Source of the DNA: a virus
IMG/VR virus record: IMGVR_UViG_3300028196_000007
Coordinates: 22,140 to 86,139 of that record
Length of the DNA: 64,000 bases
Strand: one strand, 5' to 3'
The notes under the pieces were generated by a model that had not been told where the DNA came from, did no database searches, and saw nothing but the letters and a program-made list of their open reading frames with translations. Positions 6,997 through 45,914 of the stretch are shown piece after piece; position 1 is the first letter of the stretch; each line of letters opens with the position of its first letter. The position numbers and the translations under genes are program-made.

Positions 6997-8346
6997 TTAG
7001 TCATCAAGTTCTTCGAACCTCTTTTTCATTTCTTTTCTTAAATATTCTTGATGGTTACTCATCTGAGTTGTTAGCTCTTTACCTGTAACTGAGTTTTCAT
7101 CAAATATGTTAAAGTTACCGTTGTTTGTATTTATCTGACTTGGAAAAGTTATACCATCAGGCCCAAATCTATTTTTGATAACATGTATTCTACCTGTGCC
7201 TCCAACTTTATCTTCTATCTTTCTAGATAATGACATTACAAAATCTGCTGTCATAATCTTTGAATATGATTCTGCAATCTTGTCTGCCTGGATTACATCT
7301 TCCTGAAGTGCAGATCTGTTTGCTTGTGATGCTGTCCAAACTGGCACATCTAAAGTACCTGCAAGACCTCTTAGTTCTTCATAAATATTACCTAGCTCTA
7401 ACCTATAGTCTTTTTGTCCGCCGTTACCTCTTAATAAATCTGCATAATCCAAAATTACCATATCAGGTTCTTTACCTAGCATTCTGTACCTTTCGACATG
7501 AGAAGCTATTGTTGATATAGCAGCTGTTTTTGTTGGATAGTATTTTACAATTAAATTACCTGGTATCTTTTCAACTGTTTCCTTTACAGAATCGATATTA
7601 TATTTAAGCTCTTGGTTTGCAATTCCTGTTATAACTGAATCGTATCTTAATCCAACATAAGCTTCGTTTAATTCGAGTGTATAGTGTAGTACATTCTTAC
7701 CTTGTTTGATAACATTTGCACCTAAGTTAACAAGCAGAAACGATTTACCAATTCCAGCTGGTGCAACAACAACTCCAAGCTCGCCTTTACCTAACCCGCC
7801 GTCCATAAGATTATCAATCACATCCCAGCCTGTAGGTAATATGTGTCTTGTTGCTTGGTTATATCTTTCTTCTACCATTGCAACGTAATCATGGCCTACA
7901 TTTCTTTCTGTACCTGCTGTCATTGCAGCATCAACCTTAGCTTTTATTGCGTCATATTTTCCTGATTTTAGTAATTCGACAGAGTCAATTATTGCATTCT
8001 TTAAAACTTTATTTTTACAAAAGTCCAATGTTTGCTTCATTACAAAATCTAGGTCTTGTGAGTCTACATATTTAAAAGTGTCCTTTACGTTAGCAACTAT
8101 ACTTTTCTTAAACACATCGTCAGTAATTTCAGATATCTTTACCTTTAATACCTCTGCTGTTGGCTGAGATTTATATTCCTTAAAATATTCTTTTATAACT
8201 GAAACCAAAAATTGATTTGATTCATTCTCAAAATATTCAGGTTGAAGTATATCGTCAATCTGTTGAAGAAACTGTTTGTCTTTTAGTAGACATGTTATAA
8301 TTTTTATCTGGAATGTATAACCAAACTCGCTTAATCTATCACTCAT
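6997..8346 (-). CDS. Replicative DNA helicase (DnaB/T4 gp41 family)
   Basis: 449 aa. A DnaB-like N-terminal helical part (to about 150), then a RecA-type motor: Walker A APAGIGKS (195-202), Walker B DMVILDYADLL (295-305), the ASQANRSA block and a late KNRFGPDG segment, which are typical of hexameric replicative helicases. It unwinds the lagging-strand template. It overlaps the upstream exonuclease gene by 8 bp and shares its promoter at 9391-9420. No separate primase or loader is recognised in the window. Confidence 0.88.
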   Translation of the reverse strand: MSDRLSEFGYTFQIKIITCLLKDKQFLQQIDDILQPEYFENESNQFLVSVIKEYFKEYKSQPTAEVLKVKISEITDDVFKKSIVANVKDTFKYVDSQDLDFVMKQTLDFCKNKVLKNAIIDSVELLKSGKYDAIKAKVDAAMTAGTERNVGHDYVAMVEERYNQATRHILPTGWDVIDNLMDGGLGKGELGVVVAPAGIGKSFLLVNLGANVIKQGKNVLHYTLELNEAYVGLRYDSVITGIANQELKYNIDSVKETVEKIPGNLIVKYYPTKTAAISTIASHVERYRMLGKEPDMVILDYADLLRGNGGQKDYRLELGNIYEELRGLAGTLDVPVWTASQANRSALQEDVIQADKIAESYSKIMTADFVMSLSRKIEDKVGGTGRIHVIKNRFGPDGITFPSQINTNNGNFNIFDENSVTGKELTTQMSNHQEYLRKEMKKRFEELDD

Positions 8347-9385
8347 AACTTTTTGATGCCATTGCTTCTAGGTGAGAAAAACATGTTTTTAGCCAAAGGT
8401 CTGGATTTCTAATTGCAGAGTTTGTCTTATCCTCTAACATGAGTTTCTGGAATTTATACTTTACTAATCTATTTATAGGTTTTCTAACTGCATCAATTAT
8501 TCCTGATTTTATACTACCAGGAATGTCAACGTTGCTTAGTTGCATCAAATCATAGTTTAACCTTATCATATCTTCACTATTTTTAATATCTGATATTACT
8601 TTTGAAGTGTCGTCTAAATCTTTTACATGACTAATCATTTCGTCCAAAGTAAGTTTTTTATCTTCAAATAATATAGGAAGTTTTTTCTTTAATGTCTTTA
8701 CACCTACACCTCTTATACCAGGAATATTATCCGATGCATCACCTTTCATAGTTCTATAAAGCAAGAAGTTGTGAGCAGGTATTTCAAAGTCATCATTTAC
8801 TGTTTCTTTAAAATAGTATTTCTTTTTAGTAGGTGACCAAACTTGTACTCTATCATCAACAAGTTGTAGAAAGTCTTTGTCAGTTGACATTATATAGAAG
8901 TGACTTTCAGGATAAACTTGTTGTGACAAGTACGCCATAGCATCATCAGCTTCTATGTTTTCTGGTGCTATCACCGTAATTGGTAGAGTGTCAAGATACT
9001 GAGTTAATCTACGAATTTGATTTTTCATAGATATACTTTCATCTTCTTGATTGTGGAAGGAGTCTAGACGGGTTAACCGCTTTCTAACTTTTCTGTTTGC
9101 TTTGTACTCGGGAAAGAGTTTTCGCCTTTTACTAGAACCACCTTTACCATCAAAACATACAATAACTCTTGTAGGCTTGATGTTTTTTATTGCGTAACCA
9201 ATAGACTGCAGAAAACCCGTCATCCCTCCAATATGTATACCGTCTTCGTTCATACTAGGGTTGACGGCAAATGCCCTAATAAATGTGTTTAATCCATCAA
9301 TCACGAGTATTCTATCGTCTGGTGACTGATTTACTGAATCATCTTTTTTTAGATTTTTCAGGATTTCTATATAACTTTGTTTCAT
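8339..9385 (-). CDS. 5'-3' exonuclease (FEN family, T4 RNase H-like)
   Basis: 348 aa. The acidic metal-binding residues of FEN nucleases are visible in order: ILVIDGLNTFIRAF, VIVCFDGKGGSSKRRKLFPEYKANRK-type arch, IEADDAMAYL, STDKDFLQLV, and GDASDNIPGIRGVGVKT (helix-hairpin-helix with catalytic Asp). It removes RNA primers and flaps during phage replication. There is no ribosome-binding site: the ATG begins 6 nt after the TATATT element of a middle-type promoter, so the mRNA may be leaderless. Confidence 0.87.
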   Translation of the reverse strand: MKQSYIEILKNLKKDDSVNQSPDDRILVIDGLNTFIRAFAVNPSMNEDGIHIGGMTGFLQSIGYAIKNIKPTRVIVCFDGKGGSSKRRKLFPEYKANRKVRKRLTRLDSFHNQEDESISMKNQIRRLTQYLDTLPITVIAPENIEADDAMAYLSQQVYPESHFYIMSTDKDFLQLVDDRVQVWSPTKKKYYFKETVNDDFEIPAHNFLLYRTMKGDASDNIPGIRGVGVKTLKKKLPILFEDKKLTLDEMISHVKDLDDTSKVISDIKNSEDMIRLNYDLMQLSNVDIPGSIKSGIIDAVRKPINRLVKYKFQKLMLEDKTNSAIRNPDLWLKTCFSHLEAMASKSYE

Positions 9386-9390
9386 ATATC

Positions 9391-9420
9391 TAATATAATA
9401 AAAATATCCGACATATAAAA
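9391..9420 (-). promoter_or_regulatory. Middle-type promoter for exonuclease-helicase genes
   Basis: Minus strand TTTTATATGTCGGA, 8 nt, then TTATATTA (TATATT at 9392-9397). The start codon at 9385 follows by only 6 nt, which predicts transcription starting at or next to the ATG. Confidence 0.75.
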
Positions 9421-10435: not shown

Positions 10436-10633
10436 TTACAACACCTTGATTACATCAGATTTTTTAACTTCAACAACCTCAAATTCTACTGAGTCATTGG
10501 CAAAGTCTTTATTTACTATTGCTTCTGCATCCGTAACTGATACCGCTGAAACTAAATAAGCTTCTTTTTTCCAAGTAACCTTAGTTCCGTTGTCGGTCGC
10601 TACTTTAACTCTTGCTAAATAATACATATCCAT
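10436..10633 (-). CDS. DUF4494-like small protein
   Basis: 65 aa. The pattern YYLARVKV....GTKVTWKKEAYLVSAVSVTDAEAIV followed by FEVVEVKKSDV closely resembles the DUF4494 family (E-YLVDA-S-TEAE core), which is known mainly from Bacteroidota and their phages. Function unknown. It supports a Bacteroidota host. Strong AAAGGAG ribosome-binding site; it follows the secreted-protein gene by 11 bp and is probably co-transcribed with it. Confidence 0.6.
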   Translation of the reverse strand: MDMYYLARVKVATDNGTKVTWKKEAYLVSAVSVTDAEAIVNKDFANDSVEFEVVEVKKSDVIKVL

Positions 10634-13378: not shown

Positions 13379-13410
13379 TAATATAACAAAAATATTCCAC
13401 ATTATAAAAC
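13379..13410 (-). promoter_or_regulatory. Middle-type promoter for gp32-uvsX
   Basis: Minus strand TTTTATAATGTGGAATATTT then TTGTTATATTA (TATATT at 13385-13380). The box is TATAATGTGGA, a variant of TATATGTCGGA. It overlaps the end of the UvsE gene (stop at 13402). Confidence 0.6.
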
Positions 13411-14418
13411 TTTATGTAAACTATTTTTGTATTTTTTTAAGTAGCCTATTACAGCTATTTCCTTATGCTTTGCTTCGACAACCACATCGATGTCTAGACC
13501 ATAGTCGTTGATTTCGTCTACAACTAAGTCTGAATGTGCTTGTACTTTTATTTTTTGAGATTCCTTGTGTAGCTTTTCCATAGTAGGATATTCGGATAAC
13601 TTTTCCATTGGTATATTACTGTTTTTAAGAAAAGTTTCAACTATGAGTCCTTGTTCTCGCCTACGTGATTCGGAATAATGAGTACAAGGTTTTACATCAC
13701 CCCATGTAGATGCTGCTAGTTTTAGTGCTTGTTCTTCGGTAAGACCACCTGTACAGAATTTGTGGTGGTGATAATCGAATACAATAGGTATACCTGTATT
13801 TTGGAATACACCTGTATATAAATCTTGAACTGAATACATGCTAGCTTTGTCGTCGTTTTCCACTGTTAACCTGGATTTTGCTGATTCTGATAATTTGTCG
13901 AAATTATTGCAAAACCTAACAAGAGCTGTTTCCTTGTTGCCATAAGCACCGCCAACATGTATATTGATTTTTGCCATACGTGTTCGTGGTAAACCCATAA
14001 GGTCCATAATTTGAGCAGACTTATTAAGTTCGTTCCAAGCACCTTCTACTGTTTTTTGAGTTGGTGAAGCTAGCACTGTAAACTGGCCTGGGTGGAATGA
14101 CAACCTTTGGCCATAACCTTGAGCCAAGTCGCCAGCTTGCTTTAATAGCACACATAATTCATCGTAGCCAGGCAGGTCTGTAAATTCATATTCAGACATC
14201 CACGGATATATGTCACTAGACATACGGAATACTTTTATTCCATTGTCCTCATTCCATTGAATAATCTTGATTAAGTCTTTGGTATTTGCTATACACAATT
14301 CTGACACATAGTCTAGACCTTTTGCATCGAATGTTCGCCTAATCATTGAGCGGCCTGTGTATATACCTTGTTTTCGTAAGTGCATGTTTATACATGCGTA
14401 TCCTAATTGCTTTGCCAT
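13402..14418 (-). CDS. uvsE: UV damage endonuclease (UVDE/UvsE family)
   Basis: 338 aa. Family blocks in order: LGYACINM at the start, FRMSSDIYPWMS, RLSFHPGQF, INIHVGGAYGNK, RLTVENDDKASMYS, PIVFDYHHHKFC, and KPCTHYSESR, which supply the three-metal site of this TIM-barrel endonuclease. It nicks DNA 5' to UV photoproducts, which suits a sunlit marine habitat. Its ATG lies 7 nt after the TATATT element of a middle promoter with no Shine-Dalgarno, so the message is probably leaderless. Confidence 0.88.
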   Translation of the reverse strand: MAKQLGYACINMHLRKQGIYTGRSMIRRTFDAKGLDYVSELCIANTKDLIKIIQWNEDNGIKVFRMSSDIYPWMSEYEFTDLPGYDELCVLLKQAGDLAQGYGQRLSFHPGQFTVLASPTQKTVEGAWNELNKSAQIMDLMGLPRTRMAKINIHVGGAYGNKETALVRFCNNFDKLSESAKSRLTVENDDKASMYSVQDLYTGVFQNTGIPIVFDYHHHKFCTGGLTEEQALKLAASTWGDVKPCTHYSESRRREQGLIVETFLKNSNIPMEKLSEYPTMEKLHKESQKIKVQAHSDLVVDEINDYGLDIDVVVEAKHKEIAVIGYLKKYKNSLHKVL

Positions 14419-17370: not shown

Positions 17371-18381
17371 TTAGAGGTCCAAAGACCTCATATTGTGATA
17401 GTCTCTACCTATTTTAAGCTTAGTAGGAAAAACCATTAGTTTCTTTATTTCCTTTAAAATTTCTTTTCCATCATCTGAACTAATATCAAATACAAAAGCA
17501 TCGTATACATAAAGAATCATCTTGCTAAATTTATTTTCTAACATATCTAAAATATTTTTTAGATTTTCAGAATTCTTTTCTGTTTCGAATGCTTGTATAA
17601 AATAGTTAAATAATTTTTGAGGATTCATATCCTTAAAATTTCTTTTATAAAACCTTCGCTTTAAAATTGGTGTTTCTATATAACCTTTACTATTATAAAT
17701 ATCCCACAACTTAAAAATATAATCATTAGTCTTGCTGAAATATTCTATATGTAAAAACTCTTTTGGAATACCTCCATATAGTATTTGAAAACTTATTTTT
17801 TTAGAGTCATTATATTGCTCATCGGTTAGGTTATCTGTGTCGAAATAAAGTTTACCTAGATATTTGTGGAAACTACCTTCTGGCTGTTCTATGCCTATAA
17901 GCTCTGCAATTAGTCTAAGATGATACGCGTCATAGTCAAGCTCTGCAATAATACCACCTTGATGCCTGCTTATGTATTTCATTCTTGTGCCGTCTTCTTT
18001 ATTAAGAGCAGCATAGTTTATACCATTTTTAGAGTTGGAAGGTCTGCCTGTAGTTGTGAATACGTTGTATTTTGTATACTCAAATCCATCTTCAGTCCAC
18101 AAGCCGCTTTCTTCAATTTTTCTAAAAGTATTAACAACATTATCATTATAAGATTGAAATATGCTATCAGACACATCAGGAATCGCATGCGATATAGCGT
18201 TTAAATGGTCTTTTTCTTCTCTAATCTTGTTAGAAGGTATAATGTCATATATGTTATATCGATCACCGTAAAGCCTTTTATAAAAAGTGTTTATAGGCAA
18301 ATCTAGACTATGAATATCTATAGACTTGTTATTGTGTAGATAGTGTTTTATTTGTATTTTATTTCGAAGTTCAGATAACAT
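17371..18381 (-). CDS. Short DNA polymerase I-like (family A) polymerase domain
   Basis: 336 aa. Family A signatures: FTTTGRPSNSKNGINYAAL (108-126, the T-TGR-S..NLQN block), motif A ELDYDAYHLRLIAELIG (147-163), motif B DSKKISFQILYGG (192-204, conserved Lys195), GYIETPILKRRF (234-244) and motif C YVYDAFVFD (291-299). The catalytic aspartates of motifs A and C are kept, but HDE of motif C is changed to YDA. There is no 3'-5' exonuclease domain and the thumb is short; full phage PolA enzymes are 550-800 aa. It could be a gap-filling or auxiliary polymerase. No Shine-Dalgarno; the ATG begins 6 nt after TATATT, so the message is probably leaderless. Confidence 0.75.
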   Translation of the reverse strand: MLSELRNKIQIKHYLHNNKSIDIHSLDLPINTFYKRLYGDRYNIYDIIPSNKIREEKDHLNAISHAIPDVSDSIFQSYNDNVVNTFRKIEESGLWTEDGFEYTKYNVFTTTGRPSNSKNGINYAALNKEDGTRMKYISRHQGGIIAELDYDAYHLRLIAELIGIEQPEGSFHKYLGKLYFDTDNLTDEQYNDSKKISFQILYGGIPKEFLHIEYFSKTNDYIFKLWDIYNSKGYIETPILKRRFYKRNFKDMNPQKLFNYFIQAFETEKNSENLKNILDMLENKFSKMILYVYDAFVFDISSDDGKEILKEIKKLMVFPTKLKIGRDYHNMRSLDL

Positions 18382-28501: not shown

Positions 28502-28993
28502 TTAGTACTGTAGAATCCAGTAGTCACATCTTATAGTTAAAGCGATGATAGCCGGAACACCGTCATTTTCCCAAGATATTTCACCAAAGTCAGCATCTAC
28601 AAGGAAAGCACCTTTACCAGTCCATTCTTCTACTTTATCACCTACAGGTCCAAGTACATTGATTGTCACATCTTTCTTATAGAAGTCTGCGTAACCATTT
28701 CTACCTGTTACTGATTCGTGGTGAAGTCTTGCCCATTCCATAACAGCTTGTGCGCCTGATGGTACAATTGGGTCATATAACTCTACAGTTATAGCATCCC
28801 AATTACTTCTTCCTTTAATAAATCTTGAATTATTGATATGTTTTATTTCAGTTTCACCATTAACAAGTTTCGGTCTAGCCGCTTTTCTTATTAAGTATGA
28901 AGGTATACCATCTACGTAAAATACGAATCTGTTTGTTACCTTTGGCTCAAAGGCCGTGAACATTAGTTCTGTTGGGTCAATTAAATTTGCCAT
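28502..28993 (-). CDS. Tail tube protein (gp19-like)
   Basis: 163 aa, the usual length. MANLIDPTELMFTAFEPKVTNRF, the GRNGYADFYKKDVTINVLGPVGDKVEEW block and a C-terminal beta-rich ALTIRCDYW match tail tube proteins of T4-like phages. It polymerises inside the sheath. Strong AGGAGA ribosome-binding site, late-type promoter motif at 29015-29025, and a strong terminator behind it. High promoter plus terminator definition fits a protein needed in many copies. Confidence 0.88.
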   Translation of the reverse strand: MANLIDPTELMFTAFEPKVTNRFVFYVDGIPSYLIRKAARPKLVNGETEIKHINNSRFIKGRSNWDAITVELYDPIVPSGAQAVMEWARLHHESVTGRNGYADFYKKDVTINVLGPVGDKVEEWTGKGAFLVDADFGEISWENDGVPAIIALTIRCDYWILQY

Positions 28994-29025: not shown

Positions 29026-31260
29026 CTAATCGTTAAATGTTGCGCCTGTTGGCATTATGTTAAAGTCAACAACAATGAATTCAGCGGCTTTAGCTGGTTG
29101 AATAAATATATCACCTTTCATGATGTTTCTATCAATGATATCTGGTGTATTGTTTGTTTCATCCATTACAACCTTGAAAGCATAAAGACCTTGTCTTTGT
29201 TGAACTGATTCCATATAAGGATTAACTTGTGATAAGAATCTATTTCTAGTTGCTGTTGTATTGTTTTCAAATAATAAGTATTTAGATACTGATGCAATAA
29301 ATTTCTTAAGATTTATTAGTAATCTTCTTACGTTTACACGGTCAAGAGCAGAAGCTTTCTTTTGAAGAGTTTTCTGTCCCCATACACAAACACCTTCACC
29401 TGGGAATGTTGCAACTGGGTTAACTGAACCTTCATATAATACATCCCTGTTAGCGTGTGTTAGTTTTCTTTTAGCTTGTACTACTGTTTCCTGTCCACCT
29501 CTATTTAAACCAGCAGGAGCAAACCATTCTGCAGATACCTTATCGTTAAATGCATAGATACTTGGCATAATTACAGATTGTGGAACCCAGATATATTTAC
29601 CTGTTTGAGGGTCCGCAATTTGTACCCATGGCCAATACATTGCTGCATATGATGAGTCAAAGTTTTCTGCTTCTTGAGTTACAGATGCTATTTCGTTAGT
29701 TGAATAATCTACTGGATCGATTATAGTCATCACATCACCACGTTCTTCACATACAGTAACCATTTTATTAGCTAGTCCTGTCATAGATTGAGCTGTAATT
29801 CCTGGAGCGATTAGTAAGTTAATATCGAATTCATCTTGATTAGCTAATAGATTGAATGCACATTCGTATGCAATATATCCAGTATCTGTTACTGCTGCTA
29901 CATCCAACCCTTGGAAGTTTCCAGCAGTTGCGTTTTCATAGTAATTAGCTGCACCTGGAGTTGATGAACCTAATGGAGAATCTACAATAAAGTTTGTACC
30001 ATCAGCACCACCAAAGAATGAACCAGAACCTATTTGAGGTAACGATGCAGTTGCATTAGTATCTCTAATGTTTCCGTTTTCATCTAAATAATCTACTGTA
30101 TTTAATATTGAAGCTTCATCGATGTAAACGTATTGTGAACGGTTTTTAAAATTACCGCTTGGTTGTATATATGGATTTGCAGATGTTGCGTCTCCAATTG
30201 TCGATCTTTGAGTACCTATTACCGAACCAACATAATTTTTTTCGTTAGGGTCAAGTGAGCAATTATTCCATGTTTCAAGAATAACTTTTCTCTTTTTAGA
30301 ATCATCACCTCTACGAATAGCTAAAGTAAATGTACCTTTCTTTTCGTTAACGTTTGATATTTCCCATCTAAGATTATTTCTTGTTCCAAATTTAGTTCCT
30401 GTTCCATTAAGAGATGCAGATACGTGTACTTGGTTAGCAGCAACCTTAAGATTAGTTGTAGTTGAACCAGGTAAGCTATTCATAAGCTGACCATCAGTAT
30501 GTGTGTATATTTCGAATGATACAGTGTTTGAAGAATATGTTGAACCAGATGAAACTACACCTGTTACTGCAGCTAATGAGCTAGTTGATGCAACAGCGTT
30601 AGTTGATAGTGTTGTTGTTGAACCAGATATAAATTGAATTTCTGCACCATCTGCTGTAGCTGAACCAGATACCGAGAATGTACCATCAGAATGTGATACT
30701 GCAGTTCCAGCACCAACAACTGTATTCATTTCAGCTGCAAGATTTGTCATTGTCTCACCAACAAGAGTTGCTATATCATAGTAGTAAATACCAGCAGCTG
30801 TGTTATCAGCTGGAATAGTACCTGTTTCTCCAATGAATTGATATGCAGTACCATCAGAATGAGTATACTGAATCATAACTCCATCGGCAAGAATTTTGAA
30901 TGTACCAGCTGAAGCAGAAGGAGCAATACCAGCATTAGCCGTTTGGTCTAAATGAGTATATGAATTTGCATTTCCAGAATCAGTAGGCATTATCCTTACG
31001 ATAGTAGCAGGGCCACCATGCTTTAAGTATTCTTTTGCAGTGATTGATGTTAAGTATTGATAGTAATTACTACCTGATTTAAAAGAGTCTCCATATAGAG
31101 CTTGATACTCTGAATATGAAAATACTTGTGTCGGTACTAGTGCCTGTCCTTTTACAGTTGGTCCTACGATCGCAGCACCAATTTGAGCGACGCCTTGCTG
31201 TACAAATGATAAATCATTTTCTCTTGTAAATACACCAGGGCTAATTATTTTTTCAGCCAT
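29026..31260 (-). CDS. Tail sheath protein (gp18-like)
   Basis: 744 aa. Starts IISPGVFTRENDLSF, typical of contractile sheath proteins, followed by GAAIVGPTVKGQALVPTQV. A Thr/Ser-rich inserted beta domain (about 120-340) precedes the conserved C-terminal sheath core: NRGGQETVVQAKRKLTHANRDVLYEGSVNPVATFPGEGVCVWGQKTLQ and RVNVRRLLINLKKFI. It contracts to drive the tube through the envelope. AGGAGA ribosome-binding site; late-type motif at 31313-31325. Confidence 0.92.
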   Translation of the reverse strand: MAEKIISPGVFTRENDLSFVQQGVAQIGAAIVGPTVKGQALVPTQVFSYSEYQALYGDSFKSGSNYYQYLTSITAKEYLKHGGPATIVRIMPTDSGNANSYTHLDQTANAGIAPSASAGTFKILADGVMIQYTHSDGTAYQFIGETGTIPADNTAAGIYYYDIATLVGETMTNLAAEMNTVVGAGTAVSHSDGTFSVSGSATADGAEIQFISGSTTTLSTNAVASTSSLAAVTGVVSSGSTYSSNTVSFEIYTHTDGQLMNSLPGSTTTNLKVAANQVHVSASLNGTGTKFGTRNNLRWEISNVNEKKGTFTLAIRRGDDSKKRKVILETWNNCSLDPNEKNYVGSVIGTQRSTIGDATSANPYIQPSGNFKNRSQYVYIDEASILNTVDYLDENGNIRDTNATASLPQIGSGSFFGGADGTNFIVDSPLGSSTPGAANYYENATAGNFQGLDVAAVTDTGYIAYECAFNLLANQDEFDINLLIAPGITAQSMTGLANKMVTVCEERGDVMTIIDPVDYSTNEIASVTQEAENFDSSYAAMYWPWVQIADPQTGKYIWVPQSVIMPSIYAFNDKVSAEWFAPAGLNRGGQETVVQAKRKLTHANRDVLYEGSVNPVATFPGEGVCVWGQKTLQKKASALDRVNVRRLLINLKKFIASVSKYLLFENNTTATRNRFLSQVNPYMESVQQRQGLYAFKVVMDETNNTPDIIDRNIMKGDIFIQPAKAAEFIVVDFNIMPTGATFND

Positions 31261-34998: not shown

Positions 34999-36597
34999 TT
35001 AGCTATTGAAAGAACCAGAAATTGAACCAAATGAAGATACCCAAGCAGCATCGTCGACAGTGATTTTACCGTAGAAGTCGTTTCTTACAACTTTCTTAGC
35101 GTATCTTGTCATCACACCTTTTCTTGGAGTAAAGTTAGTTGGGTCATATACTAGTGGAGTCATGATTAACGGAATGTATGGAGCAAATACAGCACCAGTT
35201 TCAAGGAATTGTGTTCCTCTAAATCCTGTTAAAATTTCTTGTCCTGTCCAGTAAGGGTTTTTGTAAATTGTAAATCTGTTCGAAAGTGAACCGATTGCAG
35301 TTACACCCATTGCAAAGCTTCCTGCAGTACCATCAGTATTTGCAGAGTAACCAGCGATAGACTCTAAGTATGTAGCGATTTGTGGAGAACAAACAGCGAA
35401 GTTAGCTCCTCCTCTCATCGTTGATTGGTGGATAGTGTTCGACATTACTTGCATTGTGATTCCTAGTTGAGCAAAAGCATCACCATAAGTTTCACCAGCT
35501 TGTGGTACGTCAGCAGTGAATGTTGCAGAGAATCCAGCAGCTTTTGAAAGCATTGCTAAAATTTCCATGTCGATTTCCATTGAAATGTATTCAGATAGCA
35601 TAGATGTTAATTCTGCTTCAGCATCAATTGAATGATAAGCATTTAAATCTTGTGCGAATTCTGGTGACCATTTAACTTTAAGTTTTCTAGTCTTAGCAAC
35701 TAAAGCTTCTTGAGTTAATTGAACATCAATTTCTGGAATTTCTAAATCTGAACCAACTCCAGTACTAGCACCTCCCATTTCAATACCTACTGAATCTTCA
35801 AAGTCACCTCTTAAGGTAGCAGTTTGAGTATTTCTGTAGTAGAATAAGTTTCCACCTGTTCCAGGTAAAGCCATGTTAGAACCAGCTAATGTAGCAGCAC
35901 TTCCAAGTCCTTTAAATGTTACAGATGTAGTACCATTATAAGCAGATGCAGTAAATACCGTATCTCCTGCAGCACCACCAGTTGAACCAGATACAACATA
36001 AAATGCTGAAGCTAAATCGTAGTCTACGTCAGTTGGAGCATCTCCGAAAGATAAAGTACCTGCAAGGTTTAATACACCAGCAGCTAAATCAGCTGAGTTA
36101 GATACAGCAACTTTTACTTTTCCTAATGAATATCCAGCAGGACGTCCACCCATATCTGAATCCCAGTTTCCGTATAATCCATCGTTCATGTTTGGTTTGT
36201 TTTTACCAGAACCACCGTATAAAGAATTGCCATCTTCATGACGTCCTTTAGCTGTTCCGTATTTGAAATCTAACCAGAAAACTAGACCTGAAGGTAAGTT
36301 CATTGGTTGTACGCTGACAAATTCCTTTGCAGAAATTTCAGCAAAGATTCTTCTAACTAATGGTAAAGCTACACCATTCCAGTCCTCACGACCACCAGCA
36401 TCGGTAGCGTTAGCTTCTGAAATAAGTTGTTTAGCTTGATTTTCTAAAAGGATTGCAGTATTGTGTTTGTTATACTCCTCAGTAACTCCTTCTAAAAGAC
36501 CAGTTTTTTCCCATTTAGTTACAAGACCTTTAGTTTGGTTTCTCTGAGCAGCAAATTGTGCTTGAGAATCTTGTAATAAATCGTTAATTTGTGACAT
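34999..36597 (-). CDS. Major capsid protein (gp23-like)
   Basis: 532 aa, the T4 gp23 size. NHNTAILLENQAKQLISEAN near the N-terminus and GREDWNGVALPLVRRIFAEISAKEFVSVQPMNLPSGLVFWLDFKYGT are highly typical of gp23 proteins, as are the C-terminal FTPRKGVMTRYAKKVVRNDFYGKI. A less conserved Ser/Gly/Ala-rich part (about 170-270) is the likely insertion domain. AGGAGA ribosome-binding site; it shares the transcript of the scaffold gene. Confidence 0.94.
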   Translation of the reverse strand: MSQINDLLQDSQAQFAAQRNQTKGLVTKWEKTGLLEGVTEEYNKHNTAILLENQAKQLISEANATDAGGREDWNGVALPLVRRIFAEISAKEFVSVQPMNLPSGLVFWLDFKYGTAKGRHEDGNSLYGGSGKNKPNMNDGLYGNWDSDMGGRPAGYSLGKVKVAVSNSADLAAGVLNLAGTLSFGDAPTDVDYDLASAFYVVSGSTGGAAGDTVFTASAYNGTTSVTFKGLGSAATLAGSNMALPGTGGNLFYYRNTQTATLRGDFEDSVGIEMGGASTGVGSDLEIPEIDVQLTQEALVAKTRKLKVKWSPEFAQDLNAYHSIDAEAELTSMLSEYISMEIDMEILAMLSKAAGFSATFTADVPQAGETYGDAFAQLGITMQVMSNTIHQSTMRGGANFAVCSPQIATYLESIAGYSANTDGTAGSFAMGVTAIGSLSNRFTIYKNPYWTGQEILTGFRGTQFLETGAVFAPYIPLIMTPLVYDPTNFTPRKGVMTRYAKKVVRNDFYGKITVDDAAWVSSFGSISGSFNS

Positions 36598-36628: not shown

Positions 36629-37576
36629 TTATTTTAATCCTGCTAACCTTTGCATTCTAGCTGCAAAAGTATTTGATTCAACAATTACATCTTTCGATGG
36701 CTTTGTAGAACCGATTGTTTTTGATGCGAAGCTTTCGTTAACTTTCTTCTTTGGAACATAGTTCGTGATTGATTCAGCTAATGTAGAATAAACTAATTTA
36801 ACTTCTCTTACAGAATTTGCTCTATCGAATGTTTCGATAACTTTCATCTTTTGTGATTCTGATAAACTGTTTCCTCTGAATAATTTGTTTGAATAAAGTA
36901 ATTTAGAGTTTAGTAAGTTTACTTCGTTAATTTTAGATTTTAAAAATCTAATAACTTTGTAAGCTTCTTCTAATTCATCTTCTTCTTCAAGTTCTTCAGT
37001 TTCTTCTAATTCATCTTCTTCTCTTAGTGCAGAAATAATCTCTTCTAAGTCCATTTCTTCCTCAACTTCATCTTCTTCAGATAGGGCTTTGGCGTCGTTA
37101 TCAGGTTCAGCATCAAGTGACTTTTCGTTAGCAGCTGGGTCTTCAGTATCGGCTTTTAATTCGCCTTCTTCTAAATCCTCATCTTCTTCAAGTTCCTTAA
37201 TGATTTCTTCCAATTCCATTTCGTCTTCGTCCATTTCTTCTGTTTCTTCGATTTCCTCAGTCTCATTGTATGATTCATCAGCAGGCATATCTGCACCTGT
37301 TTCGTCTGTTTCATCATCAGCAGAGCCAGTGTCAGCAGCATCAGCAGTAGTGTCAGCGATAGCAACTTCTTCGTCCTCAATTGAGGTATCAGTAGCAGCT
37401 AATTCATCTTCTTCTTCTAATTCTTCATCCATTTCTTCGGCAATCTTATTAGATAACATAGATTGTAGTTTGGGAGTAAATGCTTCTTCAAGAGCTAATT
37501 TCGCGTTTGCTATTGCAGTTGAACGAACCGCTTTAGCGTCGGCAATTGCCTCTTTTAATAAGTCGTTTTTTGACAT
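36629..37576 (-). CDS. Prohead scaffold/core protein (gp22-like)
   Basis: 315 aa from the ATG at 37576; the ATG six bases earlier sits 1 nt after the AAAGGAGA site and is too close. It is extremely acidic (long Glu/Asp runs at about 55-215, e.g. EEMDLEEIISAL) with a helical Lys-rich C-terminal quarter, as in T4 gp22 scaffolds that fill the prohead before proteolysis. The gene lies directly upstream of the capsid gene (31 bp), as in T4. The strand opposite the acid run gives a long Ser-rich frame that is a shadow. Confidence 0.78.
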   Translation of the reverse strand: MSKNDLLKEAIADAKAVRSTAIANAKLALEEAFTPKLQSMLSNKIAEEMDEELEEEDELAATDTSIEDEEVAIADTTADAADTGSADDETDETGADMPADESYNETEEIEETEEMDEDEMELEEIIKELEEDEDLEEGELKADTEDPAANEKSLDAEPDNDAKALSEEDEVEEEMDLEEIISALREEDELEETEELEEEDELEEAYKVIRFLKSKINEVNLLNSKLLYSNKLFRGNSLSESQKMKVIETFDRANSVREVKLVYSTLAESITNYVPKKKVNESFASKTIGSTKPSKDVIVESNTFAARMQRLAGLK

Positions 37577-37651
37577 TATCATTCTCCTTTAATTTTTGTT
37601 CTGGAAATAAGGTTATTAGGAACCTTAATAGGGTAGTTATAGTTTGTGTAT

Positions 37652-37726: not shown

Positions 37727-37752
37727 CTAAAAAAGAGCTTAAAAAAGCTCTT
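37727..37752 (-). terminator. Rho-independent terminator after the bS21-like gene
   Basis: Minus strand AAGAGCTT-TTTT-AAGCTCTT followed by TTTTAGTTTTT. It separates the bS21 unit from the scaffold-capsid unit. Confidence 0.85.
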
Positions 37753-37771
37753 CTTTATAAAAATATTTTAT

Positions 37772-38116
37772 TTATTTTGCCCTGCCTTCTTCTATGGCGA
37801 CCCAAACATATCCCTTTTCATTTCTTTTAGCAATTCTTTCTTTATATTGCTGGGACCTTATTGCCTCCTCTTTCTTCTTTCTTCTAACTTGTGCAGGTTT
37901 AATATATTCGTTTTTAGCTCTATACTTAGATATCTTATCTGAATCTTTTAATTGACGCTTAAGATATTTCAGTGCTCGTTCCAGTGTATATGTATTAGTG
38001 TCTGGAACTTTTACTCCTTCGGGATTTCCTTCTAGATAGAAGTCATGTCTTCCAAAGCTTTTCTTTTTAAAAGGCTTTTTCTTAAAGTCCTTTTTGTAAT
38101 TGGGTTTGTGTTTCAT
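37772..38116 (-). CDS. bS21-like ribosomal protein
   Basis: 114 aa. Residues about 34-90 align with bS21: TNTYTLERALKYLKRQL (cf. ENIDRALKRYKRKF), then KISKYRAKNEYIKPAQVRRKKKEEA (cf. RERQQFTKPSVKRRAQIQKA). The N-terminal Lys-rich leader and the C-terminal VWVAIEEGRAK are extra. bS21 sits at the platform of the 30S subunit next to the anti-Shine-Dalgarno; phage-encoded bS21 is known in other marine phages. It is under a middle-type promoter (38149-38178), bracketed by terminators on both sides and placed inside the late region. It has no Shine-Dalgarno (AAATAATACAAATG), in contrast to its late neighbours. Confidence 0.78.
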   Translation of the reverse strand: MKHKPNYKKDFKKKPFKKKSFGRHDFYLEGNPEGVKVPDTNTYTLERALKYLKRQLKDSDKISKYRAKNEYIKPAQVRRKKKEEAIRSQQYKERIAKRNEKGYVWVAIEEGRAK

Positions 38117-38148
38117 TTGTATTATTTACGTTAAACTTAATTTATATC

Positions 38149-38178
38149 TAATATAACAAAAAAATCCGATATATAAAA
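38149..38178 (-). promoter_or_regulatory. Middle-type promoter for the bS21-like gene
   Basis: Minus strand TTTTATATATCGGATTTTTT then TGTTATATTA (TATATT at 38155-38150). The box is embedded in the terminator hairpin at 38158-38189. Confidence 0.6.
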
Positions 38179-38189
38179 CATATACCGGA
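38158..38189 (-). terminator. Terminator upstream of the bS21-like gene, overlapping its promoter box
   Basis: Minus strand TCCGGTATAT-GTTTT-ATATATCGGA (one mismatch) followed by seven T. It ends the upstream transcript (38220-39626 gene) while its 3' arm supplies the promoter box. Confidence 0.65.
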
Positions 38190-38219
38190 CTTTTTTAAAT
38201 ATACTATTTTTATTGTATT

Positions 38220-39630: not shown

Positions 39631-40521
39631 TTACCCTATCTTTGTTAGTTTGTGAGTTTGAGTTGACATCCAATAGTCACCGCTTAACCCTGCCATTTTT
39701 GATGCTTTTTTAATAGCTTCAACTGTTGAGCGTGCTTTAACTTTATATTTCTTCTTAGGGTCTAAATCTACACCACCTAGCTTCATTGGAGCAAATTGCA
39801 TTTCCCATGTTGCGAATCCTTCATTTATATTTTTATTACTTCTCATATTTACTGCAATGCCTGGAGCAGATACTACATTTGATAAACCTTCGAATGCTTC
39901 GTTAACCAATTTTTGGTAAGATTTTTTACCTTCGTTCTTTCCTTTGTGCATCTTGTCAACTTTGTTAAAGAAGTCTTTCTTTTCTTCGTCGTCCAATTCT
40001 GCTGGAGAATCTACTCCTTCATCATCTAATGCAGCTTTGAATTTAGCTTGATATTTGTCTTGAGCCTCTGATTCTTCTACTGAATCACAAGTGCAATTGC
40101 CTGTAGGACATCCGCAGTCATCTTCGTTTAACTCTGCTATTTCGTAGTATTTACCAAGCTTACCACCAATGTCTTCGAATACAGATTCCAATCTTTGTTG
40201 CAGTGTAGAGATTTCCTTGAATGTTCCTTCAAACACCTTTATAGATTCTCCTATAGCTTTAGTATCTCTTTTTACAGATACTGCATCGAACCAATCAGCT
40301 GTTTCTTCTATTGCCATTCTGCTAGCATTTTCAGCCATCATCTTGATATTTTCTACCAATTCGCTTATTTCGTTTGTTTTGTATATGTTTTGACCAAGCT
40401 CGTTAAATCTTTTAACAGCTTCTAAAGTCTGCTTCTTTTCTTGCTCTGTCATTCTTTTTTGAGACGAAGACTCGTTTAAGTAGTTTTTGTTTCTCCAATC
40501 TCTGATGTTGAATTTACTCAT
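39631..40521 (-). CDS. Hypothetical head-region protein with a Cys-rich knuckle
   Basis: 296 aa. Not recognised. N-terminal FNIRDWRNKNYLNESS is of the type found in proteins processed by phage prohead proteases. A helical middle is followed by CGCPTGNCTCDS (about 147-158), a four-Cys cluster that may bind metal, and an ordered C-terminus FATWEMQFAPMKLGGVDL. Strong AAGGAG ribosome-binding site and 1 bp from the protease stop. A perfect late-type motif lies within the protease gene, about 90 bp upstream. Confidence 0.55.
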   Translation of the reverse strand: MSKFNIRDWRNKNYLNESSSQKRMTEQEKKQTLEAVKRFNELGQNIYKTNEISELVENIKMMAENASRMAIEETADWFDAVSVKRDTKAIGESIKVFEGTFKEISTLQQRLESVFEDIGGKLGKYYEIAELNEDDCGCPTGNCTCDSVEESEAQDKYQAKFKAALDDEGVDSPAELDDEEKKDFFNKVDKMHKGKNEGKKSYQKLVNEAFEGLSNVVSAPGIAVNMRSNKNINEGFATWEMQFAPMKLGGVDLDPKKKYKVKARSTVEAIKKASKMAGLSGDYWMSTQTHKLTKIG

Positions 40522-40522
40522 T

Positions 40523-41155
40523 TTATTTGCTCCTTGTTGGTAGTGCGCATTTGCAAGTTAAATCGCAAAGCATTTCGTTTATTATATTGTTTACCTTATC
40601 GTATTTATTTATATAAATATCATTTACTGATTCCTTAATAGGTGCCATGAACGCTCCATGTGTCGATGGGTTAGATACAAAATCCCAGCATACTAATTCG
40701 AAGTCAGGTTGTACTTCAAGTGTTCCATCTTCAGAAAGTTGTTTTACTGAACCTAGTCCTCTTGATGATATTCCTAGTTTCACACCAGCTTTTAAAAGCT
40801 CTTTGAGAATGTTACCAGAAGGTGTACCTAGTACTTCTACCTGGCCTAACAAATCATCGCCTTTCCACCATATTTTTTTTATATTATGTGATACGTTCTG
40901 TAAATTTACAACTGAAGATTCTGGATGGTCTAATTCTCCAAGTGCTCTATTCTCTGCAATTTGTTCATTAGAATACTTTGATGCTTCACGCATAAGTGTT
41001 TCTTTAGGATATACTCTGCCATTCTGGTTTTTAGCTCCAGCTCTTTGAAGTACACCGGTTACTATAACACGGCCTTCATTTCTTTCTTCTGATTCTTTAA
41101 TCATCTGAGGTGTTATTTCAAATGATGTATAATCTATTAACACTTCTTTTGACAT
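40523..41155 (-). CDS. Prohead core protease (gp21-like)
   Basis: 210 aa. RVYPKETLMREASKY, then ALGELDHPES with the catalytic His (H77), LGTPSGNILKELLKAGVKLGISSRGLGS with the catalytic Ser (S130 or S131), and FELVCWDFVSNPSTHGAFM. This pattern defines T4-type prohead proteases, which mature the head by cutting scaffold and capsid. Strong AAGGAGA ribosome-binding site, and its start overlaps the previous gene by one base. Its C-terminal 30 codons carry a late promoter motif for the next genes. Confidence 0.88.
   Translation of the reverse strand: MSKEVLIDYTSFEITPQMIKESEERNEGRVIVTGVLQRAGAKNQNGRVYPKETLMREASKYSNEQIAENRALGELDHPESSVVNLQNVSHNIKKIWWKGDDLLGQVEVLGTPSGNILKELLKAGVKLGISSRGLGSVKQLSEDGTLEVQPDFELVCWDFVSNPSTHGAFMAPIKESVNDIYINKYDKVNNIINEMLCDLTCKCALPTRSK
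40610..40622 (-). promoter_or_regulatory. Late-type promoter motif inside the prohead protease gene
   Basis: Minus strand TGATATTTATATA, a perfect consensus inside the 3' part of the protease gene, coding DIYI. It is about 90 bp before the gene at 39631-40521. Confidence 0.55.
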
Positions 41156-42508: not shown

Positions 42509-44320
42509 TTATATATCCTCTTCTAGTATGTTGCTTTCGTTTAAAAGGTCAGATTTATATTTCTTACTTTTGTTGAACAATCTACTTATTTTTCTAGATT
42601 CAAACTTTCGCTGAGATTTGTTATTTTTAAGTTTAGTGTCCCGTTTTCTTTCCTCTTTACCAACAGTATCTCTACCTCTTGCAGAGTCTTGAGTTCCGTA
42701 TTTCAAACCTTCTTCAGGTCTTCCTTGTCCTGGTTCATTTTCACCAGAACCAAATAAGTCTGAGTCTTGACCATCAGTATTTTCAGGGTCAATAGTCGCC
42801 AAAGTGTGTGGTGTTCCAAGTGCTTCACCTGAGCTTTGTGGGTCATTTCCTTCCATTTCAATTTGAGATTTTCTAAACTTCTGCTTGATGTCTTCTACAA
42901 CTTTAGCTCTTTCTACTTTCACCTCTTCATCATTCATATTAAATACATTTTTATATATCCAATCTTCTGATACCATCTGTCCTTCTTTTATTGTCGATGC
43001 CAAATCAAGTTTACTAGACCATAATTCTAATTTTTCTTGTTCTGCAATTGATGATGGGTTGGTAAGCATTATTTCAAAGTCAACCATTTGCTCTTCAGTG
43101 AATCCTTGAGAATACAAGTGAACCATTGCAATTTTAGTTAACTCAGAAATAAATATTCTTTGTATTCTTTCTATGGTTCTTGCAAATCTAACATCTTGAG
43201 CTGCAAGTGTAGCTTTACCTTCTACTCCTTCCTCATATCCTAAGAAAGCTTTCGGCACCTTTAGTGCAGCAAACATTCTTGCTTTTAAATAATCGACGTC
43301 TTCTATTCCTCCAAACTCCATACCACTTAAAGTGTCTATTTCAGTTCCTGATTGTCCACCTCTAACTGGAAGATATACGTCTTCTAACATATTTGACATG
43401 TTAAATTTAAGATTATATTGTCCTGTTTTCTCATCGATATATGGCGTCTTCTTCATTTGATTAACAACACGCTGCATATAAGTATCAACTTCTGCTGGTG
43501 GGATATTACCTATATCTATTTTGTATATTCGTTTTTCTGGTGCACGCATTATTCTGTGAATTAACATTGCGTCTTCCATAAGAGTTAGCTGTTTCCATGT
43601 CTTCCTTGCAGGTTCTATCATAGCTTTACCATAAGGTAAGAAGTTCATATCATTAAGCATTCTAAAATGAGCAATTTCATAGTTTTCATAATGAGTGTTT
43701 GTTGCCTGTTTTCCGAAACTGCTATGACCTGTTTGACCTCCCATGCTAGGGTCATGTGTAAACTTAACCATATCAGGATTTTTTGGGTCGATGCCTTCTT
43801 CTCTAAACATCTCGTATGAAGACATAGGTATTGCATTCGTTATACCTACCTTCTCTGTAATATCCAATTTTAGATAAAAGTCTCCATACTTGCACATGTT
43901 TCTTACCCATGGCCATGCGTTAAATTCTATATTAAGTACATCATAAAATAAATTATTCAATACTTTCTTTACTTTCTCGTCTTCTGTCTTTATATCAAGC
44001 ACATTGCCGAATTCGTTTTTAAGAGTTGACTCATCAGAATATATGTCCAGTGCAGATGAGATTATAGAGTCTTCATCCATAATTTCATAGTCTGAATATA
44101 ACTGTAGTCTTAGTGTGTGAAAATTAGCCTGTTGGTTATACCCATGGCCTTCAGTTTGATATATTCTGTTATATCTGTCAACTAGTCTATTTGTAGCTAG
44201 TTTTGTGTTTGCTTGTACTTTGCTTAGGTCGGCAACCTTTAATCCGTTGTCTGTTCTTCTAACAATTGTACCTGTTGAAAATAAAGTTTTTAATCTTCCA
44301 AAAAATGTTTTATCAGCCAT
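42509..44320 (-). CDS. Portal protein (gp20-like)
   Basis: 603 aa. Conserved gp20 blocks: TLRLQLYSDYEIMDEDSIISSALDIYSDEST, WPWVRNMCKYGDFYLKLDI, APEKRIYKIDIGNIPPAEVDTYMQRVVNQMKKTPY, and GYEEGVEGKATLAAQDVRFARTIERIQR. The first 100 residues and the last 100 (polar, Lys-rich) are variable. It forms the dodecameric DNA channel at the head vertex. Follows the terminase gene by 16 bp, in T4 order. Confidence 0.93.
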   Translation of the reverse strand: MADKTFFGRLKTLFSTGTIVRRTDNGLKVADLSKVQANTKLATNRLVDRYNRIYQTEGHGYNQQANFHTLRLQLYSDYEIMDEDSIISSALDIYSDESTLKNEFGNVLDIKTEDEKVKKVLNNLFYDVLNIEFNAWPWVRNMCKYGDFYLKLDITEKVGITNAIPMSSYEMFREEGIDPKNPDMVKFTHDPSMGGQTGHSSFGKQATNTHYENYEIAHFRMLNDMNFLPYGKAMIEPARKTWKQLTLMEDAMLIHRIMRAPEKRIYKIDIGNIPPAEVDTYMQRVVNQMKKTPYIDEKTGQYNLKFNMSNMLEDVYLPVRGGQSGTEIDTLSGMEFGGIEDVDYLKARMFAALKVPKAFLGYEEGVEGKATLAAQDVRFARTIERIQRIFISELTKIAMVHLYSQGFTEEQMVDFEIMLTNPSSIAEQEKLELWSSKLDLASTIKEGQMVSEDWIYKNVFNMNDEEVKVERAKVVEDIKQKFRKSQIEMEGNDPQSSGEALGTPHTLATIDPENTDGQDSDLFGSGENEPGQGRPEEGLKYGTQDSARGRDTVGKEERKRDTKLKNNKSQRKFESRKISRLFNKSKKYKSDLLNESNILEEDI

Positions 44321-44336
44321 CTGTTTATTTACTCCA

Positions 44337-45914
44337 TTATAGTAGCCAGGTTAAGTCTTCGTCGTCGTTACCAATCTTTTGTTTCCAAGGGTCTTGTCCA
44401 GAAAAACTGTTTCCTGTATAAGCACCTTTGGTATTAACTATATTATTTATTGCGTTTTTGTTCATGCTTAATCCTTCTGTATGTAGTCGGATAGCGTTAT
44501 CTCTAACAAATAATGCAATAGAAAAAGCCATTGTTAAATCGTCGTTATAACCACGTTGAGCTTCTGCTCTATGGCCATTCCAAATAAAGACAAACAGTTC
44601 ATCTATAAGCCTTTTCGATTTGATTGTGCACGCTTTTTCCCTAAAATAAATATCTAGCTTCGATATCAAAAGAGGTCTTGTTCGTGTTGAAGTAGTAAAA
44701 CCTGGGGTCATGTTTTCCCTATTTTTTAGGTCATAACCTTTTGTTAATTGTGTTGCTGCGTCATGAACTCCTTCATGTTTGTATGTATAATAAAGGTTTC
44801 GATACCCTCTATCTATAGCAGGTTGTAGCGCAGCCCAACCTATATTTGCATTTTCTACAACTAATAAAGCTTCGTTGTATTCTGTAGCTATGTTGACAAG
44901 TAAGTTTCCAAATTCTTTTGTACCTATTTGGTTTTTATACTCGGCAACTTGCTCCATCTTTTCTATATCTATTACGTGAAAAGTAGAATAGTCACTTCCA
45001 TCTCCTCTGGCTACATCGGCAACTACCATGTACGCTCTTGAATAATCTGCATAATCCCATATCCAAAGCTCTTCTTCTGCTCCTCGTTTTTCAACAGGGT
45101 CTTTAACCATATTTTCTGAATACCATTCAAGTAGCTCACCTGATACAACAGAGTTACCAGATGTTACGAAATCACAGTCACATTCTTGTGCCGCCATCTT
45201 ACTTCCTAGTAGCTCATCTTGTGTATCTCTCCATTTTTGGTCACGTTCAGGGTGTAGTGTCCAGTGTAGTTTTATTGGATTGAATTGACCTTCGCCTCTT
45301 TCGGCCTGTGTCCATATCTTATGAAATAAGTTACCTGTACCATTAGGTGTAGATAGCAGAACTGCAGAACCACCGGTTGCTAGTGTTTGCTGTGCAGATG
45401 TCCATATCTCTTCAACCTTGTCTATAAATGCAGCTTCATCTATTACTAAAAGTGATAATGCTTCAGAACGAGCAGCATCAGGTGCAGATGAAACAGCTTT
45501 TATTTGAGAGCCATTTTTAAATCTTAGAGAAAGTCTATTATCTTCTTCAGAACCTACCTTTAACCAAGAAGGTAATAGTTCATGCATTACTCTAACTTTT
45601 GTAATAAGATTTTTTGCAGTATCTTGTTTTATTGCAATAACCAAAACATTAAAGTCTTCTCTAAATATCATATTCCATACAGAGTAGCCGGCTGTAAGTG
45701 TTGATATTCCCATCTGCCTAGACTTAAGTATGATATTAAATCTATTTTCTTTTAGCTGTACTAGTGAGTTGTCTTGGAAAGGAAACAAATCAAACTTTAT
45801 TTTACCTCTCTGAGGATGCTGTATAAAGCAGTACTTCCTCATAAAATATACGGGGTCTTTCGAGCACTTCACGTACTCGTCAACTAAAGCTTGTTTGATT
45901 GTTTTGTTTGTCAT
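44337..45914 (-). CDS. Terminase large subunit (gp17-like)
   Basis: 525 aa. ATPase: Walker A-like SRQMGIST (65-72), VIDEAAF (157-163) Walker B, and the AAVLLSTPNGTGN-type coupling motif LLSTPNG; the nuclease begins with VADVARGDGSDYS, the first acidic metal residue of the RNase H fold, followed by LVVENANIGWA. It packages DNA into the prohead. The late-type motif TATATTTATATATAGG immediately precedes its weak start (AGG only). Confidence 0.93.
   Translation of the reverse strand: MTNKTIKQALVDEYVKCSKDPVYFMRKYCFIQHPQRGKIKFDLFPFQDNSLVQLKENRFNIILKSRQMGISTLTAGYSVWNMIFREDFNVLVIAIKQDTAKNLITKVRVMHELLPSWLKVGSEEDNRLSLRFKNGSQIKAVSSAPDAARSEALSLLVIDEAAFIDKVEEIWTSAQQTLATGGSAVLLSTPNGTGNLFHKIWTQAERGEGQFNPIKLHWTLHPERDQKWRDTQDELLGSKMAAQECDCDFVTSGNSVVSGELLEWYSENMVKDPVEKRGAEEELWIWDYADYSRAYMVVADVARGDGSDYSTFHVIDIEKMEQVAEYKNQIGTKEFGNLLVNIATEYNEALLVVENANIGWAALQPAIDRGYRNLYYTYKHEGVHDAATQLTKGYDLKNRENMTPGFTTSTRTRPLLISKLDIYFREKACTIKSKRLIDELFVFIWNGHRAEAQRGYNDDLTMAFSIALFVRDNAIRLHTEGLSMNKNAINNIVNTKGAYTGNSFSGQDPWKQKIGNDDEDLTWLL

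Follow-up and report, generated by a model that had tools for sequence, protein, structure and literature searches.

A phage bS21 gene without a Shine-Dalgarno sequence, and the coincidence of bS21 carriage with Shine-Dalgarno usage across its capsid lineage

Across the phage lineage described here, carriage of a gene for ribosomal protein bS21 coincides with the use of Shine-Dalgarno (SD) sequences by phage genes, and in the phage under study the bS21 gene itself has an SD-less leader, is a transcription unit of its own between two predicted terminators, and encodes an arginine in place of the Tyr54 of Flavobacterium johnsoniae bS21. Of the ribosomal proteins encoded by viruses, bS21 is much the most frequent. 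The window analysed, 64,000 nucleotides in length, comprises bases 22140-86139 of a linear 86,139-bp IMG/VR record. A first-pass annotation of this window had proposed that phage bS21, made before the late genes, replaces its host counterpart in a Bacteroidota host, exposes the anti-SD of 16S rRNA and switches ribosomes to SD-bearing late messages. That proposal survives in weakened form; the incorporation of phage bS21 into ribosomes, the release of the anti-SD, the timing of these events and a Bacteroidota host with an occluded anti-SD are what we infer from the observations set out below.

The product of the gene is assigned to ribosomal protein bS21 by its family profile, in agreement with the first-pass annotation; its PF01165 match (32.9 bits against a cut-off of 27) is the sole one in the whole record. 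The bS21 core spans approximately residues 37-97 and is flanked by basic N- and C-terminal extensions, the latter ending in YVWVAIEEGRAK. Among solved structures, the chains nearest in sequence are bS21s from bacteria, with 9i5v and F. johnsoniae 7jil heading the list. The Tyr54 of F. johnsoniae bS21 stacks on A1534, giving the 16S 3' tail a new direction, and strong-SD messages are translated several fold more when this residue is replaced (Y54A) or the C-terminus of bS21 is missing, while a weak SD (AGGA) makes almost no difference to a reporter in any bS21 background (McNutt et al. 2023, PMC9976891). The window protein has in common with this bS21 the core and the position of the C-terminal helix that clamps the 16S 3' tail (PMC9976891). 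Its Arg87 aligns with Tyr54, gap-free from the KP motif, so that, unlike the Bacteroidia-type bS21 which occludes the anti-SD, it has by alignment neither Tyr nor any other aromatic residue at this position; the loss of an anti-SD-contacting residue envisaged in the first-pass annotation is thus seen in the alignment to 7jil. The rpsU gene of F. johnsoniae also carries an extended SD and is subject to SD-based autoregulation (PMC9976891), whereas the phage gene lacks both Tyr54 and an extended SD for autoregulation. A tblastn search of named phages with the window bS21 gave no match, and a search of IMG/VR returned two relatives, both near-identical. The AlphaFold model of the protein was weak (pTM 0.38) and Foldseek found no match to it, as expected for a protein whose folding takes place on rRNA.

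The leader of the gene, AAGTTTAACGTAAATAATACAA-ATG, pairs with the anti-SD at +0.5 kcal/mol, which bears out the earlier call that it has no SD, and is unstructured (minimum free energy -1.8, z +0.78); a motif within it, GTTTAAC..AAAAAT, is conserved in relatives. Upstream lies a putative promoter, a copy of a repeated phage motif (TTTTATATGTCGGA..TTTTGTTATATTAGA) found at approximately 11 sites in the contig and conserved upstream of bS21 in relatives. The two terminator-like hairpins that bracket the gene compare with 0.4 expected in shuffles, and the TATATT box stands directly behind the first of them [Table 1]; own promoter and flanking terminators had both been proposed in the first pass. 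Relatives whose bS21 proteins are just 38-53% identical keep this arrangement of hairpin, TATATT box and leader ahead of the gene. An Rfam search of 30-45 kb gave no match. We note four minus-strand genes, three in the window (8339-9385, 13402-14418 and 17371-18381) and a fourth to its left, whose TATATT box ends only a few bases before the ATG (window positions 9398, 14432, 18394 and about -15900), a proximity suggestive of leaderless or near-leaderless messages.

Table 1. Features of the bS21 transcription unit and of other genes in the window (window coordinates)
Feature	Coordinates	Strand	Evidence and remarks
Phage bS21 gene, 114 aa	37772..38116	-	PF01165 over cut-off; alignment to 7jil chain; clade alignment A3
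SD-less, unstructured leader, ~26 nt	38117..38143	-	5' end inferred from TATATT box
Phage promoter: TATATnTCGGA box + TTGTTATATTAGA	38147..38180	-	TATATT at 38155-38150; function inferred
Terminator-like hairpin behind upstream gene	38157..38197	-	fold z -5.6; overlaps upstream box of bS21 promoter
Terminator-like hairpin behind bS21	37728..37757	-	fold z -3.7
Head-region protein	39631..40521	-	leader AAGGAG
Prohead protease	40523..41155	-	phrog_207; leader AAGGAG
Portal	42509..44320	-	phrog_213; leader GGAG
Terminase large subunit	44337..45914	-	phrog_2/5989; no SD, dG +1.7 (exception)
Scaffold-like protein	36629..37582	-	sequence; function from position only
Major capsid protein	34999..36597	-	phrog_138; leader AGGAG, SD -7.3 kcal/mol
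Tail sheath	29026..31260	-	phrog_23; leader AGGAG
Putative tail tube	28502..28993	-	beside sheath; synteny with annotated Mel-JY01 tail tube; leader AGGAG
Short DUF4494 protein	10436..10633	-	27.5 bits, cut-off 27; lineage marker for Bacteroidia

The bS21 gene lies between a scaffold-like gene, which adjoins the capsid gene, and a head-region gene, with the capsid gene two genes and the protease gene three genes away and those for portal and terminase nearby. SD-type sites precede the tube, sheath, capsid, protease, portal and other genes; for the scaffold-like protein the second ATG (37576), which would give AAAGGAG at normal spacing, is the more likely start. Gene calling followed a simple rule, the longest ORF beginning with ATG; SD sites were scored against one anti-SD (16S 3') tail over the 17 nt that reach to three bases from the start, and shuffles or control regions are given beside the main numbers. 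On this basis SD 4-mers precede 58% of the genes in the structural block (19-64 kb of the window), as against 18% in shuffles and 9% in an upstream control; the figures are 35% for the genes in 1-19 kb and 46% for the remaining contig. The first-pass picture of an SD-less bS21 among SD-rich late genes therefore holds for many genes but not for all, the terminase and approximately six further ORFs of the block being without SD, and an SD-less gene is accordingly unremarkable by itself. The stronger SD sites expected of late genes are likewise seen in direction but do not reach significance in the window, be it with late genes defined by homology to the window structural block (58% versus 41% of non-late genes, p = 0.09) or, for the contig, by a fixed 20-kb rule (p = 0.37). 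In the window clade SD sites run along the entire known sequence. A strict late-only rule for the window was rejected, non-late genes carrying SD sites too; the late-gene contrast is real for many genes, yet SD usage is not confined to late genes.

By capsid, portal and terminase the window phage groups with Flavobacterium phage immuto (MW353175; 48-54% identity in these proteins and a shared gene order) and Microcystis phage Mel-JY01 (PP395634). The comparison covered 80 capsid-related loci from IMG/VR and 11 from genome bins, with a capsid tree of 67 phages; bS21 was sought by iterated profile, in bS21-less loci also across whole records, and was called absent under a 4500-base rule that was set once. 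SD-type leaders (mean pairing <= -2.8 kcal/mol) characterize 41 of the 44 bS21-positive phages and two of the 23 bS21-negative ones, and SD strength differs between the two sets (Mann-Whitney U, 5e-10, an unpaired test that ignores relatedness). Three SD thresholds were tried for the tree and group comparisons, with like results, and SD motifs in the bS21 groups show a sharp maximum at 10-13 nt ahead of the start codon. On the tree, bS21 presence requires at least four changes; SD usage moves with it in about 2.7 of the four and in the opposite direction in none, changes too few for significance. Immuto lacks bS21 and its genome is nearly devoid of SD sites, whereas Mel-JY01 shares with the window phage a syntenic bS21, between prohead protease and capsid, and SD sites on its genes; its bS21 differs in length (75 aa), in having at position 54 either Lys or Arg according to which alignment is used, and in the SD on its own gene. 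Exceptions run both ways, with bS21 and no SD in L082, L062 and LR756508, and SD without bS21 in L017 and L019. In these last two, SD sites precede 50-57% of genes and bS21 was not found in their records. The first-pass proposal thus survives as a co-occurrence of bS21 and SD usage across the lineage, qualified by these exceptions, and host matching may account for part or all of it. In the literature searched we found no report tying phage bS21 to the SD usage of phage genes, which is not proof of novelty.

Genes lying no more than 20 kb from that for the capsid have stronger SD sites than genes elsewhere in Mel-JY01 (p = 0.0007), G022 (0.0008), G008 (0.003), G001 (0.024) and G003 (0.027), the p-values being uncorrected for the eight contigs compared. 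Of the six bS21 contigs tested, five have their strongest SD sites around the capsid genes, and the bS21-less immuto and G024 show no SD difference between the vicinity of the capsid gene and elsewhere. A homology-based definition of late genes (likeness to the window block), tried before the 20-kb rule, which was set once, gave the same direction, significant only in Mel-JY01, G022 and G001. Many first genes behind early promoters in Mel-JY01 also carry a weak AGGA, so that a clean early/late SD switch is not evident in this phage.

As for the bS21 genes themselves, all 46 distinct leaders from phages with an aromatic residue at position 54, and 15 of 17 from the other non-aromatic phages, are SD-less, related leaders not being fully independent. 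Outside the Mel-like group this leaves two of 63 distinct bS21 leaders with an SD, while among the remaining genes of these loci the share is 36-49%; within the Mel-like group, nine of 11 bS21 genes have one. The absence of an SD from the phage bS21 message is therefore a property of two of the three bS21 groups, and not of the Mel-like group. A 735-kb phage (LR756501; L336, 22928-23128) shows the reverse of the lineage pattern: its bS21 is host-like, has Tyr54 and is preceded by a strong SD (AAAGGAGGA). In L011, the bS21 start codon has been lost by a short deletion (about 8460-8480) relative to the near-identical L010; this is either a natural variant or an assembly fault.

Position 54 is Arg in five of six aligned sequences of the window clade and Ala in the sixth (L022), and SD sites are somewhat stronger in the non-aromatic-54 phages (p = 0.009, uncorrected). 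A query with an aromatic-54 bS21 led to 80 loci, all of which keep Tyr or Phe, and 35% of their genes nonetheless have SD sites, compared to 7% in the control. Loss of Tyr54 was accordingly rejected as a requirement for the SD pattern.

Several of these features place the phage beside known systems. Bacteroidota phages described by Chen et al. 2022 also carry bS21 near capsid, protease, portal and terminase genes, and the protein was proposed there to enter Bacteroidetes ribosomes for late translation (PMC9723584). They differ in orientation, the bS21 of their clades a-e being encoded opposite to the structural genes and that of the window and related loci in line with them, and in that all 61 of their proteins are aromatic at residue 54, as opposed to the Arg and the extension of both ends in the window protein; SD usage of phage genes is not analysed in the sections of that paper considered here (PMC9723584). 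Pelagibacter phage HTVC008M, from another host group, likewise encodes a bS21 (Mizuno et al. 2019, PMC6375957), which is reported to enter E. coli ribosomes (as cited in PMC9723584); incorporation into 30S is known only for a Pelagibacter phage protein. Earlier work has thus already proposed that phages make a bS21, express it late and use it to replace the host protein on ribosomes (PMC9723584, PMC9976891).

The explanation that we prefer, tentatively and at somewhat less than even confidence, is that phage bS21 enters the host 30S, frees the anti-SD and favours SD-bearing phage genes. Having an open, A-rich leader and no SD, the bS21 message could be translated by unmodified ribosomes that ignore SD sequences, and would escape the SD-based autoregulation known for host rpsU. 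Its product would join the 30S subunit instead of the host protein or before it; in ribosomes so equipped the 16S 3' tail would remain available for pairing, and the freed anti-SD would then favour SD-bearing phage genes, above all those for capsid and tail.

A Bacteroidota host was an assumption of the first-pass annotation, and DUF4494 and kinship with immuto favour it. Among 14 control genomes DUF4494 occurs only in Bacteroides, and it is found in many phages of the lineage, including that of the window, although it could be passed down within the phage lineage. A short DUF4494 gene and bS21 also occur together on one contig (C66, L241) of G058, a MAG titled Pelagibacter, and this contig is hence probably phage. 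Promoters of the form TTG-N17-20-TAnnTTTG are typical of Bacteroidota. None was found in the window contig, and immuto likewise has no excess of them, so that their absence is uninformative. In Mel-JY01 (L189-L198), 16-18 such promoters, mostly of the form TTGCATA..GTAnnTTTG, lie upstream of genes, against 1.3 expected, and the listed host, Microcystis, may therefore be wrong. Photosystem genes, sought as a cyanophage marker, were found over the cut-off in no record. MAG binning was not used as host evidence, the titles of the 11 matches being mixed.

It is quite possible, if on balance rather doubtful, that the host itself uses SD sequences, that phage SD sites and bS21 match such a host, and that the bS21-less relatives moved to SD-less Flavobacteriia. 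Candidate hosts would be deep Bacteroidota with Arg54 (or members of another phylum), since some such genomes, unlike Bacteroidia, use SD (34% of genes in G179, 41% in G077 and 26% in G114; L286, L287, L280 and L294-L318), and phage SD sites would be unremarkable in them. The genome-wide SD usage of the window clade agrees with this, and in a small host bS21 set drawn by similarity to the window clade, Mel-like bS21s are all closest to the Arg54 group, while the affinity of the window bS21 is ambiguous, the Arg54 group being marginally closer (42.4 versus 38.5 bits). Yet in that same set 11 of 11 aromatic-54 phage bS21s are closest to Bacteroidia and the phages encoding them still use SD, and DUF4494, present in lineage phages and possibly inherited among them, occurs in none of 17 genomes with Arg54 as against four of seven sampled with Tyr54. 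Host matching also leaves unexplained the concentration of SD sites near the capsid gene in G008 and G022 and the SD-less bS21 leaders.

That phage bS21 supplements or replaces host bS21 by way of its N-terminal face or extensions, with the anti-SD not freed and SD sites merely co-inherited, appears unlikely to us. Chen et al. locate what is specific to the phage proteins in the N-terminal helix, with the aromatic residue kept (PMC9723584), and the few independent tree changes and two-way exceptions are consistent with such a role; the non-aromatic position 54 of the window clade, the SD loss accompanying most bS21 losses and the SD enrichment of the late block argue against it. The SD-less leader could also be incidental, a monocistronic message having a short AT-rich leader like other promoter-proximal first genes, several of which, beside promoter-like boxes, are without SD. 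We regard this as rather improbable, the leader being long enough for an SD and conserved in sequence, and SD sites being so rare in bS21 leaders outside the Mel-like group. The confidences of these four explanations overlap, and the accounts of an incidental leader and of replacement without anti-SD release can both be partly true.

The joint occurrence of bS21 carriage, structural genes with SD sites and a bS21 gene that avoids them is a specific lead on why phages carry bS21, and the SD reporters and bS21 mutants already available in F. johnsoniae make the idea of anti-SD release cheaply testable. In its widest form, which we offer guardedly and as clearly short of an even chance, widespread aquatic Bacteroidota phages may install SD-dependent initiation in non-SD hosts, a bS21 encoded without an SD converting the ribosome and the SD sites of structural genes being read well only by the converted ribosome. 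If true, a virus would alter the start-site code of its host's ribosomes through the swap of a single protein.
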